Origin: Halanaerobium saccharolyticum
GTDB taxonomy: Bacteria; Bacillota; Halanaerobiia; Halanaerobiales; Halanaerobiaceae
Direction: 5' to 3'
NCBI RefSeq assembly: GCF_003053565.1
Contig: NZ_QAXS01000030.1
Coordinates: 1 to 37,335 of the forward strand
DNA length: 37,335 bases
Shown piece by piece: positions 7,393 through 16,142 of this stretch. Every line of letters starts with the position of its first letter. Position 1 is the first letter of the stretch. A program made the position numbers and the translations under genes. The notes beneath the pieces are model-generated. The model was not told the DNA's origin and did no database searches. It worked only from the letters and a program-made list of their open reading frames with translations.

Positions 7393-9795
7393 TTATTGAT
7401 CGTATCTCGACTTCACTTCCTCATTTAGGTCAATTCCAATATAGAATCTTGCTTTTTTCCCTTTCCAAGTGCGATGTCCAACCTTTATCCCCTCCCTCTT
7501 TAGACTAGTTGTGAATTTTCTCCTAGTAACGTAATTTTTCATGCCATTTTGACTACAAAAGAACTTATACTCTTCATAGAAAATTTTCCCATATACTTGT
7601 TTGTCTTGACCAATAACTGCTCTATCTCTAACAAATGCTTTAACTGAATCATTTTCATCCATATAATCTGCCATGGCCTGCTTCATCGGATCAGAACGTG
7701 TAAACTGTCCTTGTTTTTTAAGCCTTTTCAATCCTTCTAATGCCCAATTGAAAATCCCTGGTATTTCTTTAAATAGTTTTTCTTTCAGTTTGGGATCAAA
7801 GCCTGGATCACTACTATTAAATGTATTTGGGAAATCAACTATTTCAAATCTTCGATACCAGCCTGCTGTCTTATCTCTAGATGATGGCACCTCGTTAGCT
7901 GAGAATAAGAGCCTAACGACCGGTGTAAAGTCAAATGATTCTCCGAATTTATGCTCTCCTCTTAAAGCTTCACCAGCAATCATCGTTTTTAATACTCCAG
8001 TTTCATTTAAATATTTGGGATCAATATCTGAACATATATTTACCAGCTTATCCTGAATATAGGCAGTCTCAAATCGATTAGAAAGACGATGCATAGGTAT
8101 ATTAGATAAATTTTCTTCTCCAAATAATTTAGCGATTACCTCAAGCAACGTGCTCTTACCGTTACTTCCTGACCCAGTAAGTATTAATGCCTTATGGTAA
8201 TTTGTATCAGGAATTAAGCAGTATCCGATAAATTCTTGAATAAAGTCTCTAGTTTTTTGATCCGGAAGCCATTCTTTTAACGTTTTCGTCCATTTAAAGC
8301 ATCTTGAATTTTTAATATATTCTATTGGCAATTGAAATTGACTATAGTATTCCTTATCATGTTCTTTTAAAGTCATGTTCTTCCAATCTAACATGCCATT
8401 CTGAAGGTTAATAAAACTTTTATTCGGATCAATTCCTACATTAAACCTTTTTTCATTTTTGAAATCCATGTGTAGATTCTTAAATTCTTCCTTAACCTCA
8501 CGAACTTTATTGATCTTAACCCATTTGGGGTTCATAAGAGATAAAACCTCTCTAATCGAACTTTCTAGATACTTTAGATTCAATTTACGCCAATAACCCT
8601 TGCTGATTTGATAGGAAAACATCACATCCTGTTCTGCACAGTAGGCCCAACTTCTTCCATAATTGTTAGCTTCATAAGCTCTTATAATCTCTGCTATTTG
8701 ACGTGGTAAAAAATCATCTAAATCAGGTATTTCATTTTCTTTATTTTCCTGATCCTCGCTTATGTTATTTTTTGCTGAATTTAAAGCCTTTTCAATGGTC
8801 TTTTGATAATAATCTTGTCTTAACTTTAAATCACATTTATTCTTTCTTCTACAGGCGATTAATAAATCACAAATTTCTTGCGGCTTCCAATTCTTCCTAG
8901 CTGCTATATTAGCCAAAGCGAAATCATAACCAGAAGGAGAATTATCTTTAAGATTATCTCTATTGTGGTTCCACGTGTCTTTTACAAAGTCATTATCTAA
9001 CAGTTTTTTTAACTTATCTTCTGGTGGACTAGCTTCTGGATCTAGTTTGAAATTAAATTCTCCTATTGCTTCTTTTTCAGAACCTGAATTAAAATTCATA
9101 TCATATTCTTCAGGATCAATAAGATATTGTTCAAAATCATCAACAGAATACCTCAAATCTTCATTTGTTTCTACTATTTTTACAGGTTTTGGAGCTCCTT
9201 TATTATTAGATGTTCCGGGTAGCCTCATCAGCCTGTCTAAATTAAAAACCATGTCAATCGTCCAGCCTTTTCTTTTAGCAATTACTTCTGCAGTTTTATT
9301 CCAACTTTTTAACAATTGTTGTGCTTCTTTTCGTTCTTCCTCATCTTCAAACTGCCAAGGTTCTTTAAATAAATAAAAAACCTGATAACCATGACCACTG
9401 TCTGTTATTATTGTTGGTTTTAAAGGAAATTTCTTAATAAGATCCATTGCTTCTTCTTTAGTTGGCGGTAGGTTATCTTTACCACGATGTGGGGCTTGAA
9501 CATCTATGTCAAGCCAAAGTCCAACAATAGAACTGATATTTTCTTGTTTGCATCGAGTGTAATTTTTATTTCCCAGACTATTAATATATTTTTTAGGGGC
9601 TAAACCTCCGCCAAAATACACATTATTACTTTTATCTATATTCATAACAAATTTAACAGCTTGATCAATAGTATCACACCAATAACTTCTCTTTGTTTCT
9701 AGGACCCAAATTAAAAAAGACTCTTCAGGATCTTTATATTCAAATAGTGCTTTTAGAAAAGCATATAGATATTCAATAAGTTTATTAGTTTCCAT
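7393..9795 (-). CDS. primase-polymerase / SF3 (D5-type) helicase fusion
   Basis: This 800-residue replication protein has an N-terminal archaeo-eukaryotic-primase-type domain: LWLDIDV with Asp96 and Asp98, DSGHGYQVF near 132-140, and RLMRLPGT near 188-195. The C-terminal part is a D5/SF3 helicase with Walker A GSGSNGKST (541-549), Walker B LVNICSDID, motif C LLFSANEVP (629-637) and a winged-helix tail. Such proteins prime and unwind phage and plasmid origins. The ATG at 9795 is chosen because AGGAGG lies seven bases ahead of it; the longer frame to 9819 has no site. It lacks its own zinc finger, and two CHC2-like proteins lie just downstream. Confidence 0.92.
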   Translation of the reverse strand: METNKLIEYLYAFLKALFEYKDPEESFLIWVLETKRSYWCDTIDQAVKFVMNIDKSNNVYFGGGLAPKKYINSLGNKNYTRCKQENISSIVGLWLDIDVQAPHRGKDNLPPTKEEAMDLIKKFPLKPTIITDSGHGYQVFYLFKEPWQFEDEEERKEAQQLLKSWNKTAEVIAKRKGWTIDMVFNLDRLMRLPGTSNNKGAPKPVKIVETNEDLRYSVDDFEQYLIDPEEYDMNFNSGSEKEAIGEFNFKLDPEASPPEDKLKKLLDNDFVKDTWNHNRDNLKDNSPSGYDFALANIAARKNWKPQEICDLLIACRRKNKCDLKLRQDYYQKTIEKALNSAKNNISEDQENKENEIPDLDDFLPRQIAEIIRAYEANNYGRSWAYCAEQDVMFSYQISKGYWRKLNLKYLESSIREVLSLMNPKWVKINKVREVKEEFKNLHMDFKNEKRFNVGIDPNKSFINLQNGMLDWKNMTLKEHDKEYYSQFQLPIEYIKNSRCFKWTKTLKEWLPDQKTRDFIQEFIGYCLIPDTNYHKALILTGSGSNGKSTLLEVIAKLFGEENLSNIPMHRLSNRFETAYIQDKLVNICSDIDPKYLNETGVLKTMIAGEALRGEHKFGESFDFTPVVRLLFSANEVPSSRDKTAGWYRRFEIVDFPNTFNSSDPGFDPKLKEKLFKEIPGIFNWALEGLKRLKKQGQFTRSDPMKQAMADYMDENDSVKAFVRDRAVIGQDKQVYGKIFYEEYKFFCSQNGMKNYVTRRKFTTSLKREGIKVGHRTWKGKKARFYIGIDLNEEVKSRYDQ

Positions 9796-9899
9796 AAAAT
9801 TCCTCCTTGCTGTTTTCAAATTTTATTTAATCATGATATAATTAACTTAATAAATCGTTTTGTTTGGGGCTACCTCTACCGAAGGTGGCTCCAAGATTT

Positions 9900-10354: not shown

Positions 10355-11209
10355 TTATATTTGTGTGCGTCTTTTTATTCCAATCCTTTCAGCTAGTCTT
10401 TCAACAGATTTTTGAATTGTTTTTTCATCATTTTTATCAGTATATGGATTTTCTTCAAAAAAATTATCAATAATATCTGGAAAAGTCATCTCCTTTACCT
10501 GATATAAAACTAATCTTTTATACATGTCTTTTTTAGGGCCTAATTTCTTACAACCTAATTCTTCCATATAATCACATATTCTATCCATATCTTTATCTAT
10601 TTTGTCCTGCTCGTTATCTTTGAGTTTTTTATAATTAATCTCTCTTTTTTTAGCTGCTCTACTTTTGAGAATAGGATTCCAAAATAAAGATTCGTCACCT
10701 ATATCAATTCTGAATTTCTCTTTATTATTTTTTTGTAAAAAATATGCTGAAAGATCTTCATGTTCAATTGTTATTTGAAATGGAGTATATTCAACTTCAT
10801 TCTTTTTTATTTTCTTATTATCCTTGTTCTCTTTATATTGTCCTGTTTTCAATAATCTATCAGCTTCTTCTAAAACTAATATTGATATCCAATCTTTTTT
10901 GCAGTTGTCAGCTTCAATTAAATTATATTTGTTCTTTAAATTAATTATTGCTTTTTTTAAATCTATAAAAAATTCGTCTTTCTTGATATTAGACCAATTT
11001 ATTGCTTTAAATTCATCTTCTTTTTGCTCCTCATAAACTTTATTTAATTCTGATGCAATATTATTTAAAATATCTTCATGTACCTCAGGAACTATGTCAG
11101 AAACTACATTTAAGAAATAATTTCTTTCTGGAAAATATACTTCTTTAAATTCACTTTTTTTAGGAAATGTATACTCCCCAGGTTCTCTTTTCTTGCTTTT
11201 ACCTTCCAT
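10355..11209 (-). CDS. hypothetical protein (284 aa)
   Basis: I do not recognise this Lys/Glu-rich 284-residue protein. It starts MEGKSKKREPGEYTFPKKSE. The middle is probably helical (ELNKVYEEQKEDEFK). The C-terminal 50 residues (EMTFPDIIDNFFEENPY.. TIQKSVERLAERIGIKRRTQ) resemble a helix-turn-helix of the kind found in phage regulators, but this is weak. The start at 11209 has AAGGAG upstream and a terminator follows. It is a single-gene unit. A 16-bp perfect palindrome at 11310-11325 lies about 100 bases upstream. Confidence 0.65.
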   Translation of the reverse strand: MEGKSKKREPGEYTFPKKSEFKEVYFPERNYFLNVVSDIVPEVHEDILNNIASELNKVYEEQKEDEFKAINWSNIKKDEFFIDLKKAIINLKNKYNLIEADNCKKDWISILVLEEADRLLKTGQYKENKDNKKIKKNEVEYTPFQITIEHEDLSAYFLQKNNKEKFRIDIGDESLFWNPILKSRAAKKREINYKKLKDNEQDKIDKDMDRICDYMEELGCKKLGPKKDMYKRLVLYQVKEMTFPDIIDNFFEENPYTDKNDEKTIQKSVERLAERIGIKRRTQI

Positions 11210-12448
11210 TTTCTCACTCCTTAAATCAAATTGTTATTAATCAAAAACTCAACCTTCTCTCATTAGTATTAAGACATTAACACTTATCTTTCACATCAGG
11301 AATAATAGAATCTAAAATTTTAGATGATAAAATAGATTTTACAGAAAACGCTCAATAAGATTTTACGGATATTGCTAGATAATGTAAAAATACAAATTTT
11401 GAGATGACAAATATGTTAAATTAACCCAGTACCATAATCTGCTCTTTTAGGATATAATATTCTTTTAAATATCCTAAGAGGAAGCAAAAATATTGAAAAA
11501 AGAAGATGGATATAAAGTGCATATAGAAATTCCACAATTAAAAGAACTGGGCTTAAATAAATCTAAGATTGCAAGAAAGCTTGAAATTAGTCGGCCAACA
11601 CTTAACAATATGAAATTCTACTTGAATTAGACAAAGATGAAATCAACAGAGTAGATTACTATAATGCATTCTATGAGGTCTTTGAATCCCGTAGCAGGCA
11701 AAAAGCCAGTTAAATATTCATATTGGCCTATGCGCCGGCAGGTTATTAGTAAATTTACAGAATTAACGTTCATAAATATCAAGCACAAACTGGATTAATT
11801 CCAGCTTAAAATAAACTGTATGGATTAATGAAACCACAATCGGGGCTGATAAGGTGGTCTATAACGAAAATTTTGAGCCTTATTAGCCCTGCTATTCTAT
11901 TTTATGTAGTTTTGTATATCTATCTGCTAAAACCTCTTAAAATCGATTCTAAAGCTTCCTGGGCTATATGTTATATAGTAGATTTTTTTATTTAGAGTTG
12001 CTGGTTCAAAATACGGAAAGTGTGCGGGTAAATAAGTGACATCCTTAGTCTGACTTCTGCAGCAATTGGCAAGATTATATAAGCTGCATTCTGGATCTGA
12101 TCATAAAACTAACTAAGATAAATACCGATTTGCTGTAATAGCTAAGAAAATCTAGAAAACTTCAACCTGACTCATTTTCTGTATCCAATGGAGATTATCT
12201 GCCTTAATTTTCATAAGCTATACCTGGTTTTCCGCCGTAAAGAAAGTGAATGACCATTCATTGCTATACCTCGATTTCATCTAAAAACAGCTATTTAAAG
12301 CAATACACTTTTTAATTTTTCTCAGAGTTTAACAGACAAGTAATTTAGCAGCTTAATCAAAGTAATACATACTCATATTAATAATAACTAATGTAAATCA
12401 TAAGTAAATAAAACAAAAACCCTATATAATAATACTTTATTTATTAGT
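11210..12448. other. 1.2-kb gene-free region with transposase debris
   Basis: No intact gene is present on either strand. It contains a perfect palindrome ATCTAAAATTTTAGAT (11310-11325), two copies of AGATTTTAC(A/G)GA near 11334-11373, an imperfect inverted repeat at 11447-11477, and the decayed transposase start at 11493-11714. The rest, 11715-12448, holds many stops in all frames and nothing I can name. It reads as decayed mobile DNA. Confidence 0.6.
11493..11714 (+). pseudogene. IS21-type transposase (IstA-like) N-terminal remnant, frameshifted
   Basis: A TTG-initiated frame at 11493 gives VHIEIPQLKELGLNKSKIAR followed by KLEISRPTLNNM. This is a helix-turn-helix typical of IS21-family IstA starts. 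It stops at 11628-11630. In another frame the sequence continues as ELDKDEINRVDYYNAFYEVF, again transposase-like, before a TAA at 11712-11714. No catalytic domain is recognisable afterwards. The remnant is too short for certain family assignment, and other HTH-type transposases are possible. Confidence 0.45.
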
Positions 12449-12601
12449 GTCGAAAATTCTAACACCCTACCCTGATGCGCCCCGTCATAATAGGATTTAA
12501 TTCTCGAAACCACCCGTCGAAAATTCTAACAACCCCCCCGTCGAAAATTCTAACACCCTACCCTGATGCGCCCCGTCATAATAGGATTTAATTCTCGAAA
12601 C
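12449..12601. repeat. pair of 62-bp direct repeats plus a third partial copy
   Basis: A 62-bp unit at 12449-12510 recurs without mismatch at 12540-12601. It opens GTCGAAAATTCTAACA and ends AATTCTCGAAAC. The 16-base opening occurs a third time at 12516-12531. The core (CCTGATGCGCCCCGTC) is strikingly GC-rich against the AT-rich surroundings. The block ends five bases before the stop codon of the Rep gene. It may be terminal repeats of a mobile element, a recombination site, or replication iterons. Confidence 0.8.
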
Positions 12602-12606
12602 GAGGT

Positions 12607-14121
12607 TTAGACCAATAATATGCAGGTTAGAGTCTCTGCTCCCTGTTCATTATAGTCATATCTGCGCTTTAAATATCTGCTCTCTTCTAATGCTTTAATG
12701 TGATCACTAATAGTTTGTCTTTTAACCCCTAGCTTTTCAGATAAAGTAAGTGTACTGGGAAATGCTGTTCCTTTGTTAAATGAGTATTTTAGTATCAATA
12801 TGTATACCTTAAGCTGAGTTGGTGAAATGGCCTGATAAATAGCTCCGTTAATTACACCATTGTTAATCAATGTGTATCCAGTACCATAACTACTTTGCTT
12901 CTCAGCTTTACAGAATGTTGGACATCCTCTTCTCTTTCTAGCTTCTATTAAACCAAGACTAGCCAAATTATCAATAGCTGTGGATATCCTTTGTCGACTC
13001 ATACACATTTCACCTTTATGGGTTATTTCTTTTTTTATCTGGGTTGAATTAAGGCCGTTCTCAGCAGCCAAAAGCACACCATATACTATCAGTTCATACC
13101 CTGAAATCTCTCTATAATTGTTGAATATACGGTTGTTGAGCTTAATATGATTATCAAGTACCAGGTTATCTATACTGCCTTTAATAGGACAGTTATAGCG
13201 GTCACAGTGGTGGCTGAGCAACTCCTGGAGCTCTGCATCAGGTATGGAACATCCTAGCAGTTTGTATTCTTCATCCCAGTAGGCATAAAAGTCATTTTTG
13301 ACTTTCCCTTTCTTCTCCGGCGGCTGATTTAATTCATTCCATGCCATCACTATATCATAGGCTCTTCTTTTGGAATAACCCATCATCTGCAGCCACTTAG
13401 TCAACCTGCCCTGAGCCCAGTTCCTTTCACCTGCTTCTACACCTTTTAAGATTGAGTTAATACAGGGCCTTTCCGCCTCTGGTAGTTTTATTCCTTTGAT
13501 TCTATCAGACCCGAAATCAGGTGATTTTGCCGGCCTGATACCCATCAAATTAGATAGATACTTTATGCTGTATTTTTTAGAGGGATCCAGCTCAATAACT
13601 TTACACTCTACTTTTTCTAATTTGTTATTATAACTGCCGGGCAGCCTCATAATTCGAGCGGCTTCAGCAGCTCTTGAATCAGATCCAGTTTCATTGGAAA
13701 TATATTTAACAAAAGAGATCACTTTATTGGCATCAAACGGATCATCAAGCAGCCAGTAACTATGTATTCCATGACCAGAGCTCAAATATATGCTTGCTTC
13801 AGGCAGTCCTGCCTTTTTGATGCTCTTCTTGACCTCTTTTAGGTTCACATCATCATAGTCCGCCCATAGGGCATTTACTTTAGTTAGATTGCTGGCTTTA
13901 CCTGAAGTGGTATCTTTGCGGCCAGAAACTCCAAAATAAATGTCCTTATCCTTTGGCGGCTTATATTCTAATAATTCATCTGTATCTTTAAACCACACTT
14001 TCTTGACTTGGCCTTTTCTGTTAAATTCTCTGATCTCAATAAATCCAGGTAGGTCCGATAAAATGTGATTGATGAATTTAGCATTATTCACTTCTTTGTT
14101 TATTTCTTTTATCGAAGTCAT
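12607..14121 (-). CDS. plasmid Rep-type primase with C-terminal winged helix
   Basis: This 504-residue replication protein has an archaeo-eukaryotic-primase-type N-terminal domain: VNALWADYDDVN with Asp88 and Asp90, LSSGHGIHSYWL at 114-124, and ARIMRLPGSYNN at 155-166. A Cys/His stretch (CDRYNCPI) and two winged-helix segments follow; the last is TLSEKLGVKRQTISDHIKAL near residues 463-482. Unlike the 7393-9795 protein it has no helicase domain. The layout fits a plasmid initiator that primes at its own origin. The start at 14121 has GGGGAG upstream. It lies 34 bases after the ribbon-helix-helix gene in the par operon. Confidence 0.82.
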   Translation of the reverse strand: MTSIKEINKEVNNAKFINHILSDLPGFIEIREFNRKGQVKKVWFKDTDELLEYKPPKDKDIYFGVSGRKDTTSGKASNLTKVNALWADYDDVNLKEVKKSIKKAGLPEASIYLSSGHGIHSYWLLDDPFDANKVISFVKYISNETGSDSRAAEAARIMRLPGSYNNKLEKVECKVIELDPSKKYSIKYLSNLMGIRPAKSPDFGSDRIKGIKLPEAERPCINSILKGVEAGERNWAQGRLTKWLQMMGYSKRRAYDIVMAWNELNQPPEKKGKVKNDFYAYWDEEYKLLGCSIPDAELQELLSHHCDRYNCPIKGSIDNLVLDNHIKLNNRIFNNYREISGYELIVYGVLLAAENGLNSTQIKKEITHKGEMCMSRQRISTAIDNLASLGLIEARKRRGCPTFCKAEKQSSYGTGYTLINNGVINGAIYQAISPTQLKVYILILKYSFNKGTAFPSTLTLSEKLGVKRQTISDHIKALEESRYLKRRYDYNEQGAETLTCILLV

Positions 14122-14155: not shown

Positions 14156-14647
14156 TTAATTTATTTCCGCATTATTATATAAAAAGTCAATAGCTAACCT
14201 TATCAGATTAGATTTATCTCTGTCACTCTTTCTTGCCATTTCGTTCAGTTTTTTATCCTGATCTTCGTAAATATAGTAAGTCCTTTTAATCTTTTTAGGT
14301 TCACTTTTATCTATAGAAATACTTATAGATGGATTTTTTTTCGCAATAATATCGGATTCAGGCTTGACTTCAGATTCATCACCAACACTATCAGAGCTGC
14401 TATTAGAGGAATCAGCGTCTTTAGAATTATCATCGTCAGCAGCATTGCTGGTATTATTACCATTATTATTGCTGTCACCATTACCATCAATGTTACTGTC
14501 AATGGTACCATCAACATTACCATCACCATTGACATCATCTTTTTTCGCTTCTTTATCTTTAGACTTACTCTTTTCTTTTTTCTCTTTGACATCATTTAAA
14601 AGATCGCCAAATTTTTCATCATTTTTTTCTTCTGCATTTTTAGACAA
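14156..14647 (-). CDS. ribbon-helix-helix partition protein with acidic low-complexity region (ParB/ParG-like)
   Basis: This 163-residue protein has a charged N-terminus, a low-complexity D/N/G/S region (about residues 37-90) built from hexanucleotide-repeat DNA, and a C-terminal ribbon-helix-helix-like domain: KRTYYIYEDQDKKLNEMARK followed by DKSNLIRLAIDFL. The start overlaps the stop of parA by eight bases. A ribbon-helix-helix partner directly after parA is the arrangement of type Ib (ParA-ParG or delta-omega) plasmid partition systems, where it binds the centromere and represses the operon. That role is inferred from position and fold. Confidence 0.75.
   Translation of the reverse strand: MSKNAEEKNDEKFGDLLNDVKEKKEKSKSKDKEAKKDDVNGDGNVDGTIDSNIDGNGDSNNNGNNTSNAADDDNSKDADSSNSSSDSVGDESEVKPESDIIAKKNPSISISIDKSEPKKIKRTYYIYEDQDKKLNEMARKSDRDKSNLIRLAIDFLYNNAEIN
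14443..14538. repeat. phased hexanucleotide repeat inside the ribbon-helix-helix gene (16 units)
   Basis: Ninety-six bases divide into 16 hexamers of the type CATTAC, CATCAA, TGTTAC and TGGTAC without loss of phase. On the minus strand they encode the Asp/Asn/Gly/Ser-rich part of the protein. The same hexamer vocabulary forms the long array at 15771-16142. Confidence 0.75.
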
Positions 14648-15401
14648 TTTTCTCCACCACCCGCTTCAAAACTTTAAAAAACTGATCTGCTGCTTCTTCA
14701 TCATATTCAAATACTGTTTTCCCCGCTCTACCAGCTTCAGTTATTTTAACCCTTCTGTTAATCGGTTCTGTTAAAATATCTGGTTCATCGGAGAATATAT
14801 CTTTTAGAAGCTCTAGATTAGCCTTTGATTCATTTGTTCTTGCATCAAACATATTAGGTATAATCAGAGTAATAAGGTCGCTGCTCAATCTCAGTTCGTC
14901 TAAGTACTCATATATATTACCAACAGCTCTTACACTGGCTGACTCAACCTGAACCGGCATAATAATATGATCTATATAACATAATACTGCATCATTAACT
15001 TTTGTTCTTTGCGGTCCACAGTCAAACATAACAAAATCATAATCCATATCTTCTAGGTCCGATAATATTTCTTCCATGATTATATCTATCCTGGAATTTC
15101 GATGTAATTCTGAGTTAATCTTTTCAATATTATCATTAGGCAAAAGATCTAAATTTTCTCTAGCATTGATTATGCACTCACTTAATTTAGCAGGATAACG
15201 AGGATCCATTAAATCAAAAAAGGTATTCTCATAATCTTTTTCAGTAAATCCTAAAAATAAGCTGGAATCATTTTGCCCGTCTAAGTCAATCAATAAAACA
15301 TTAAAATCTAATTTAGCTAGTCCATGAGCTAATTGAACTGAAGTAGTGCTTTTTCCTACTCCACCTTTATTATTGATCACTGCTATTTTTTTTGGTCCCA
15401 C
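14640..15401 (-). CDS. parA: ParA-family partition ATPase
   Basis: This 253-residue ATPase has the deviant Walker A motif NNKGGVGKSTTS (signature Lys12, Lys17), the switch block LLIDLDGQNDSS, and Walker B DFVMFDCGPQ. It drives plasmid segregation with a centromere-binding partner. The GTG at 15401 is preferred because AAAGGGGG lies seven bases upstream and the product then starts MGPKKIAVINNK, as usual for short ParA proteins. A longer TTG-initiated form to 15473 would overlap the upstream HTH gene by 35 bases. It has no N-terminal HTH of its own, which fits the type Ib class. Confidence 0.92.
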   Translation of the reverse strand: MGPKKIAVINNKGGVGKSTTSVQLAHGLAKLDFNVLLIDLDGQNDSSLFLGFTEKDYENTFFDLMDPRYPAKLSECIINARENLDLLPNDNIEKINSELHRNSRIDIIMEEILSDLEDMDYDFVMFDCGPQRTKVNDAVLCYIDHIIMPVQVESASVRAVGNIYEYLDELRLSSDLITLIIPNMFDARTNESKANLELLKDIFSDEPDILTEPINRRVKITEAGRAGKTVFEYDEEAADQFFKVLKRVVEKIV

Positions 15402-15438
15402 TTCAATCCCCCTTTTTGAGAGAAAATTATCCACTCTT

Positions 15439-15621
15439 CTATTTTTCTTTATTCGATGATGATCTTTCTTCAATAAAATCTAAAAAACTCTTTTCTGTTA
15501 TACGCCAAGTATTACCAAGCTTAAACCCTTCTAACTTTTTTTCTCTTAAATATCTGCGTATAGTTTGTTCGCTTACTTTAAGTTTTTGTGCTATTTCATC
15601 AGGTGTATATATCTCAGGCAT
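15439..15621 (-). CDS. excisionase-type helix-turn-helix protein (60 aa)
   Basis: This 60-residue protein is an excisionase/MerR-like winged helix: YTPDEIAQKLKVSEQTIRRY followed by KLEGFKLGNTWRITEKSFLD. AGGAGGAGG lies six bases before the ATG at 15621. It is the first gene of the par operon, 37 bases ahead of the preferred parA start. In this position it is probably an operon regulator or accessory architectural protein rather than an excisionase. Direct repeats ATAATCTAKTAT in the promoter are candidate binding sites. Confidence 0.85.
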   Translation of the reverse strand: MPEIYTPDEIAQKLKVSEQTIRRYLREKKLEGFKLGNTWRITEKSFLDFIEERSSSNKEK

Positions 15622-15712: not shown

Positions 15713-15770
15713 CAATTAAATTACTTACTGAAGATTGCATTTTATGTGTCTGTGTAGTAATTACTGTCAA

Positions 15771-16142
15771 CATTAACATTAACTCTACCATTAATGGTGA
15801 CATTAACATTGACATCAATGTTACCATCAATGGTAATGGTAACATCACCATCAATTTTACCATTGACATTACCATTAATGTTAACATCAAAATTAATGGT
15901 AATGCTGGTACTAGTTTTAGTAGCGGTATTAATGTTGGTTTTAATACTAATATTGGTGTCAGTACTAAATTCAACACTAAAATTAGTTTCAACTAAAATA
16001 CTGGATATAATGTTAATTCTAAGATTACTGTTAACATTGACATCACCATTAACAACAATTCTAACATCAATGGTGACATTGACATTAATTCTACCATTAA
16101 CATTAATGGTGATGGTAACATTGACAGTAAAATTAATGGTAA
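15771..16142. repeat. 62-unit phased hexanucleotide array (candidate centromere)
   Basis: All 372 bases divide into 62 hexamers in one unbroken phase. The pattern is roughly YRTYRR-like: CATTAA, CATTGA, CATCAA, TGGTAA, TGTTAA, TACTAA. Both ends are the most regular (units 1-22 and 41-62), and the middle has drifted. In-phase reading is open for long stretches on both strands, but there is no start codon with a ribosome binding site and a TAA interrupts the plus-strand frame, so I do not call it a gene. It lies directly upstream of the par promoter, where ParG/omega-type ribbon-helix-helix proteins bind tandem short repeats in other plasmids. Confidence 0.8.

Follow-up and report, generated by a model that had tools for sequence, protein, structure and literature searches.

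Classical iterons are arranged as several tandem units of about 20 bp in front of rep. The locus described here resembles iteron-type theta origins in that direct repeats lie beside an A+T-rich tract at the rep gene, and differs from them in having two 62-bp units plus one 15-bp box, located 3′ of rep. The crenarchaeal plasmid pRN1 sets a precedent for origins located just 3′ of the gene for a primase-type replication protein. According to PMC4234260, its minimal replicon requires as much as 166 bp downstream of orf904, its origin is an iteron-free stem-loop of about 100 nt, and recognition of this origin by a winged-helix domain is proposed. The locus shares with pRN1 a primase-type replication protein with an origin (putative in our case) just 3′ of its gene; it differs in that it possesses direct repeats, folds no better than shuffled sequences do, and has its SF3-type helicase encoded by a separate gene.

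The second system for comparison is the replicon of Clostridioides difficile plasmid pCD6, which is in standard use as a module of shuttle vectors for clostridia (PMC5058259). Its RepA is a full-length, distant homologue of the Rep discussed below (25% identity, E = 1e-12), and a pair of direct repeats likewise follows shortly after the rep stop codon; pCD6 differs in the sequence of these repeats, in seven extra tandem 35-bp repeats downstream, and in having no par genes in its annotation. As far as the excerpts returned by the literature search go, we found no account of repeats or iterons in pCD6, or of iterons downstream of repA; the one match to direct repeats concerns CRISPR vectors, and the original description of pCD6 lay outside the search results. 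That description is reportedly the work of Purdy et al. in 2002. The terms iteron, 35 bp and RepA are absent from the examined portion of PMC6807378.

The repeat block and its gene neighborhood

The window, by which we mean the whole stretch of DNA analyzed, is contig C30 (37,335 bp) of a 94-contig, 3.2-Mb draft genome. We infer that it represents a plasmid; no overlap was found between the contig ends. At the very end of the contig (37246–37310) there is a degenerate 23-bp tandem repeat (GTTGCAAACTAAAATTCCCGAAA) in 2.8 copies.

Immediately 3′ of the rep gene (12607–14121, minus strand), which encodes a putative replication initiator of 504 aa, lie two perfectly identical 62-bp direct repeats, copy 1 (12449–12510) distal and copy 2 (12540–12601) proximal to rep, with a start-to-start distance of 91 bp. 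Five bases separate the end of copy 2 from the end of the rep ORF. The 29-bp spacer between the copies (12511–12539) holds a third, partial box of 15 bp, GTCGAAAATTCTAAC (12516–12530), which corresponds to the first part of the 62-bp unit, is offset by 67 bp from the copy 1 box and by 24 bp from the copy 2 box, and matches the unit at 22/24 bp when its CACCC/CCCCC flank is included. A first-pass annotation had described two perfect copies, a partial third and an end five bases from the rep stop, all of which is borne out. Its term “GC-rich” holds relative to the surroundings, the copies having 44% G+C each and the spacer 55% versus approximately 23–40% in 1-kb windows of the contig, and does not hold otherwise. 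Adjoining copy 1 is a 78-bp tract (12371–12448) of 85% A+T (15% G+C), by its sequence a candidate DNA-unwinding element, beyond which some 660 bp contain no listed ORF of at least 80 aa.

About 6e-26 perfect 62-bp pairs are expected at random in a sequence of this size and composition, and the observed repeat score of 62 compares with a best score of 14 in 100 dinucleotide shuffles of the region; a chance origin of the pair is excluded. Relative to shuffled sequences, neither the 167-nt block (z = −0.39) nor one 62-bp unit (z = −0.04) shows unusual folding, and a stem-loop origin of the pRN1 type was rejected since there is no large stable fold 3′ of rep. No known RNA family was recognized in 11200–12700 at E values up to 1.

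Just upstream of rep, and on the same strand, are the genes for a ribbon-helix-helix (RHH) protein (14156–14647, minus strand; RHH_1, 1.5e-5), a candidate ParB or centromere binder, and for the partition ATPase ParA (14640–15473, minus strand; AAA_31, 1.2e-35). Centromeres of RHH systems are repeat arrays, and the repeats could be a partition site bound by the RHH protein of this parA-RHH-rep cluster. We regard this as unlikely, because a separate and much denser short-period array upstream of parA (15762–16142) is the better candidate, and because a repeat pair also follows rep in pCD6 and Sarcina p10, which have four and three annotated genes without parA (according to annotation only, the PLSDB tables being incomplete).

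The array at 15762–16142 consists of densely packed ACATTAACATTAATGGTAAC-type repeats with periods of 6 and 12 bp and is a candidate centromere for ParA and the RHH protein; a 96-aa ORF predicted over a portion of the array is unlikely to be a real gene. Repeats of 12/24 bp (ATTACCATCAATATTACTGTCACC) also occur inside the RHH gene (14456–14537), where they encode an Asn/Gly/Asp-rich linker. The motif is the one seen in the array at 15762–16142 and may point to a partition site within the gene.

A P4-type primase/helicase is encoded at 7393–9819 (minus strand), as indicated by TIGR01613 (primase_Cterm; 221 bits vs. a cut-off of 108.7) and by Pfam matches (D5_N, DUF5906, Pox_D5). It is a candidate for the helicase recruited at the origin.

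On the far side of the non-coding region, 11609–11710 (plus strand) encodes the C-terminus of an HUH replication protein (68% identical to a relative over 34 residues, 6.7e-7). The first-pass annotation had placed a decayed transposase start at 11493, and the 43 codons concerned (11493–11624) do resemble the N-terminus of IstA. Contig C22 of this genome bears a second truncated copy, to which they are 65% identical over 37 residues and which scores below cut-off against the IS21 transposase model NF033546. The frame at 11493 runs straight into the HUH C-terminus. The region 11493–11710, an IstA-like N-terminal stump fused to an HUH C-terminal stump, is the scar of an insertion and a deletion by which the greater part of the HUH gene was lost.

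The block had been suggested to be the terminus of an IS21-like element; in favor of this are the real IstA-like N-terminus and the occurrence of repeated boxes at some IS21 ends. It is nonetheless extremely unlikely. The IstA remnant is joined to the HUH C-terminus, and between that point and the repeats lie approximately 740 bp of plasmid DNA that aligns to related plasmid-like contigs with an intact HUH gene (in genomes G005 and G027, see below). The four IS21-model matches in the genome are all below the family cut-off, and the 3.2-Mb draft contains neither another exact copy of the 15-mer box nor another significant copy of the 167-bp block. Within the limits of the draft assembly, the absence of further copies and the shared plasmid DNA lead us to reject an IS21 terminus.

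The block in related genomes

Strong matches to the block occur in two of 100 related genomes: G027, a Halanaerobiales MAG from another family of the order (contig C80, JAIPEX010000108.1), and G005, which belongs to the same genus as the window. The window itself is probably from Halanaerobiales, the G027 MAG being its closest named match and being placed in the same order by the kinship table. G027 C80 carries the full 167-bp block at 97% identity, with both 62-bp copies, and the rep gene adjoining it specifies a protein 94% identical to ours over 216 residues. Copy 1 matches at 57/62 columns in G027 and 61/62 in G005, copy 2 at 60/62 in G027, and the spacer is identical there at 29/29 columns; the A+T tract is identical at 77/78 columns in G005 and 71/88 in G027. 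Expressed as identity between the window and G027, the copies stand at 92% and 97%, the spacer at 100%, the A+T tract at 81% and the non-coding segments beyond that tract at 54–87%. The end of the rep gene is 89% identical, and the block is thus at least as conserved as coding sequence. Neither the block nor its motif had a match in the plasmid collection (E of 10) or in phages (E of 1), and a 24-mer had no exact match in viral contigs.

One substitution is present in both G027 copies and absent from both window copies and from G005. It points to concerted change, as far as one site can, and concerted maintenance, by copy-to-copy conversion or repeated duplication, is the best explanation for two perfectly identical copies. 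The first-pass annotation had offered recent duplication or active maintenance as the cause; the presence of both copies in G027, with their shared substitution, favors maintenance over a single recent duplication.

In G005 the match extends for 71 bp and stops with the final base of the first copy, precisely where the contig itself ends. No Rep homologue was found in this assembly, though the HUH gene and one repeat copy are present. We take the missing rep as an assembly gap; it could also mean that a further module is served or joined by the block. A site-specific recombination or integration site that exchanges plasmid modules, also among the earlier suggestions, would suit the position of this contig end with no rep found beyond it, as well as the imperfect inverted pair TCGAAAATT / TCGAGAATT near the ends of each 62-bp unit. 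We nevertheless consider such a site very unlikely: an exact repeat of 62 bp is a place where assemblies ordinarily break, G027 retains both the 29-bp spacer and the rep side intact, the window's own genome has a copy at no other locus, and the inverted pair has no unusual fold (z = −0.04). Positive evidence for a recombination target was not obtained, and the end of the G005 contig at the last base of the repeat leaves some room for one.

The HUH gene (Pfam REP_ORF2-G2P) is intact in both G027 and G005, where it faces the block across approximately 740–800 conserved non-coding bp, and is reduced to its C-terminal stump in the window. This arrangement, together with the occurrence in G005 of an HUH gene and a repeat copy in an assembly where no Rep homologue was found, would be compatible with the repeats belonging to the HUH protein, as its rolling-circle origin or control sites. 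That assignment seems quite improbable to us, since the window has lost the HUH gene and yet both copies stay perfect, no HUH genes were seen in the annotation of the other repeat-bearing rep plasmids, and seven distant HUH-homologue loci (L062–L068) are without a comparable repeat pair in their flanks. In the latter comparison a fixed 1500-bp cut missed the gene end in L060 and L061 and partly in L067; L060 and L061 were therefore left out (except for the known L061 repeat) and L067 was counted in part. The single hit, of 41 bp in L066, comes from a 35-bp tandem that forms part of the HUH match, at its 3′-end. The HUH protein had no match in plasmid records.

Locus L066 (2600–2715), on contig C5 of the window's genome, is an HUH homologue in which the 35-bp tandem duplication near the 3′-end seemingly disrupts the frame. 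In the window, the stretch 11801–11960, which has no listed ORF, is 87% identical to G027 and 88% to G005, its neighbors being 54–73% identical to G027; it contains an inverted pair (11843–11854/11878–11889) and is a candidate terminator of the lost HUH gene or a candidate site for the HUH protein. G005 and G027 also have in common a larger module (L031, 2855–8307, and L030, 1557–7258), which is seen in the window as the HUH C-terminal stump only. It comprises a RecD-like helicase with a GreA/GreB-like C-terminal match, the HUH protein (REP_ORF2-G2P), and repeated small ORFs that are BRO-like in appearance.

Rep and the repeats that follow its gene

Rep is predicted from sequence profiles to combine an AEP-type, primase-like N-terminus with a winged-helix C-terminus. 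The N-terminus matches PHROG 10514 (annotated as DNA primase; 7.8e-10 at residues 15–171) and PHROG 3123 (a family without annotation; 2.8e-11), and the primase matches in Pfam and PDB are weak. The C-terminus matches HTH_36 (5.4e-15 at 432–484) and PHROG 270 (replication initiation protein; 1.1e-14 at 415–494). A single-sequence structure prediction had a mean pLDDT of 37 and was not used.

Besides pCD6 RepA, full-length distant homologues are found in Sarcina p10, Terrisporobacter pTPDSL2, P. sordellii C128 and as the product of a second rep in G027 (contig C142); the Rep of C. difficile pAR1090-2 is a homologue reached via pCD6 RepA. Among whole genomes, family members occur in 3/398 of the phylum sample, namely the window and two primase-domain matches, and in 2/59 of the class. 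Three phage records contain matches, all partial, and four single-protein queries yielded no confirmed relative in viral contigs.

The sequence past the stop codon is legible at eight rep loci representing seven lineages, i.e. the window, G027 C80, G027 C142, pCD6, Sarcina p10, Terrisporobacter pTPDSL2, P. sordellii C128 and C. difficile pAR1090-2, ten near-identical pCD6 records being represented by pCD6 alone. At all eight, the strongest direct repeat with an offset of less than 120 bp in the fetched sequence is located just after the rep stop, the pair starting at +1 to +102. The offset is 91 bp in the window and in G027 C80, 68 in G027 C142, 79 in pCD6, 81 in Sarcina p10, 69 in pTPDSL2, 67 in P. 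sordellii C128 and 68 in pAR1090-2, and the scores of these repeats are 22–115 versus shuffle maxima of 12–15. As the criterion, set in this analysis, we used a direct-repeat pair within 125 bp 3′ of rep with an offset of 67–91 bp. The target repeat score was reached by 0/1454 control windows, which were overlapping 250-bp windows of the same fetched sequences, minus those overlapping the 600 bp after the stop. Five primase-only relatives, hand-picked from 40 records and more distant than the eight loci, all lack a repeat above shuffles after the stop.

The repeat sequences differ between lineages; it is the layout which recurs. In pCD6 a perfect 30-bp direct-repeat pair, 79 bp apart, starts 61 bp after the repA stop, and seven tandem 35-bp repeats are located 201 bp after that stop. 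Sarcina p10 has an extra tandem array of 27 bp further downstream. The lengths of the pCD6-like records differ by multiples of 35 bp in nine of ten cases and not in the remaining one, steps that are typical of iteron arrays, the array having been examined in pCD6 alone. The offsets in the window (24, 67 and 91 bp) were also considered for helical phase; seven pair offsets give a Rayleigh p of approximately 0.013 at 10.5 bp, which is a weak clustering found post hoc at a chosen period.

A putative origin of replication

The most satisfactory reading of the block, and in our judgment a probable one, is that it represents iterons, the putative Rep-recognition part of a plasmid replication origin, together with an unwinding region; Rep iterons were among the options listed in the first-pass annotation, and comparative anatomy supports them. 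Initiator-binding sites at an origin would be expected to look like this: a repeat pair next to an A+T-rich tract, altered in sequence from one homologous initiator to the next but preserved in position and spacing. As in iteron origins, the direct repeats are non-coding, lie beside rep, adjoin a tract of 85% A+T, and are conserved in G027 C80 together with that tract and with their cognate rep. The iteron reading draws further on the full-length, distant homology of Rep to pCD6 RepA and to the Reps of small clostridial plasmids, on the repeat pair after the rep stop in 8/8 loci and its lack in 5/5 primase-only relatives, on the additional array of seven 35-bp repeats in pCD6, and on the retention of the repeats where the HUH gene has been lost. 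Counted against it are the dissimilarity of the repeat sequences between distant plasmids, the greater length (62 bp) and smaller number (two plus a 15-bp box) of the units compared to classical iterons, the G005 repeat copy at a contig end by the HUH gene, with no Rep homologue found there, the absence of an overlap between the ends of the window contig, and an AEP assignment of Rep drawn from sequence profiles.

We infer a mechanism in which the direct repeats would be bound by Rep via the winged-helix domain at its C-terminus. Occupancy of two sites 67–91 bp apart might then melt the 78-bp A+T-rich tract, after which priming and unwinding could be carried out by the primase-like N-terminus of Rep, by the P4-type primase/helicase, or by both, the assignment of enzymes to these steps being provisional.

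As a system the block is a variant of iteron origins, and the new part is the family-wide layout. A long direct-repeat pair, 67–91 bp apart and directly 3′ of the rep stop, may be the common origin signature of the whole family of pCD6-type primase/winged-helix Reps, from halophilic Halanaerobiales to gut clostridia, its sequence changing with each Rep, its layout being kept, and its copies being kept alike by conversion; for this broader proposal we see the chances as evenly balanced.

The block is predicted to be the replication start in a family of plasmids, pCD6 among them, that has been poorly characterized, one in which a primase-type Rep would be paired with direct repeats, as opposed to the stem-loop known for pRN1. 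If this is true, the origins of such plasmids could be located from sequence alone, just after rep, and a short fragment consisting of rep plus the block could serve as the basis of vectors for Halanaerobiales.
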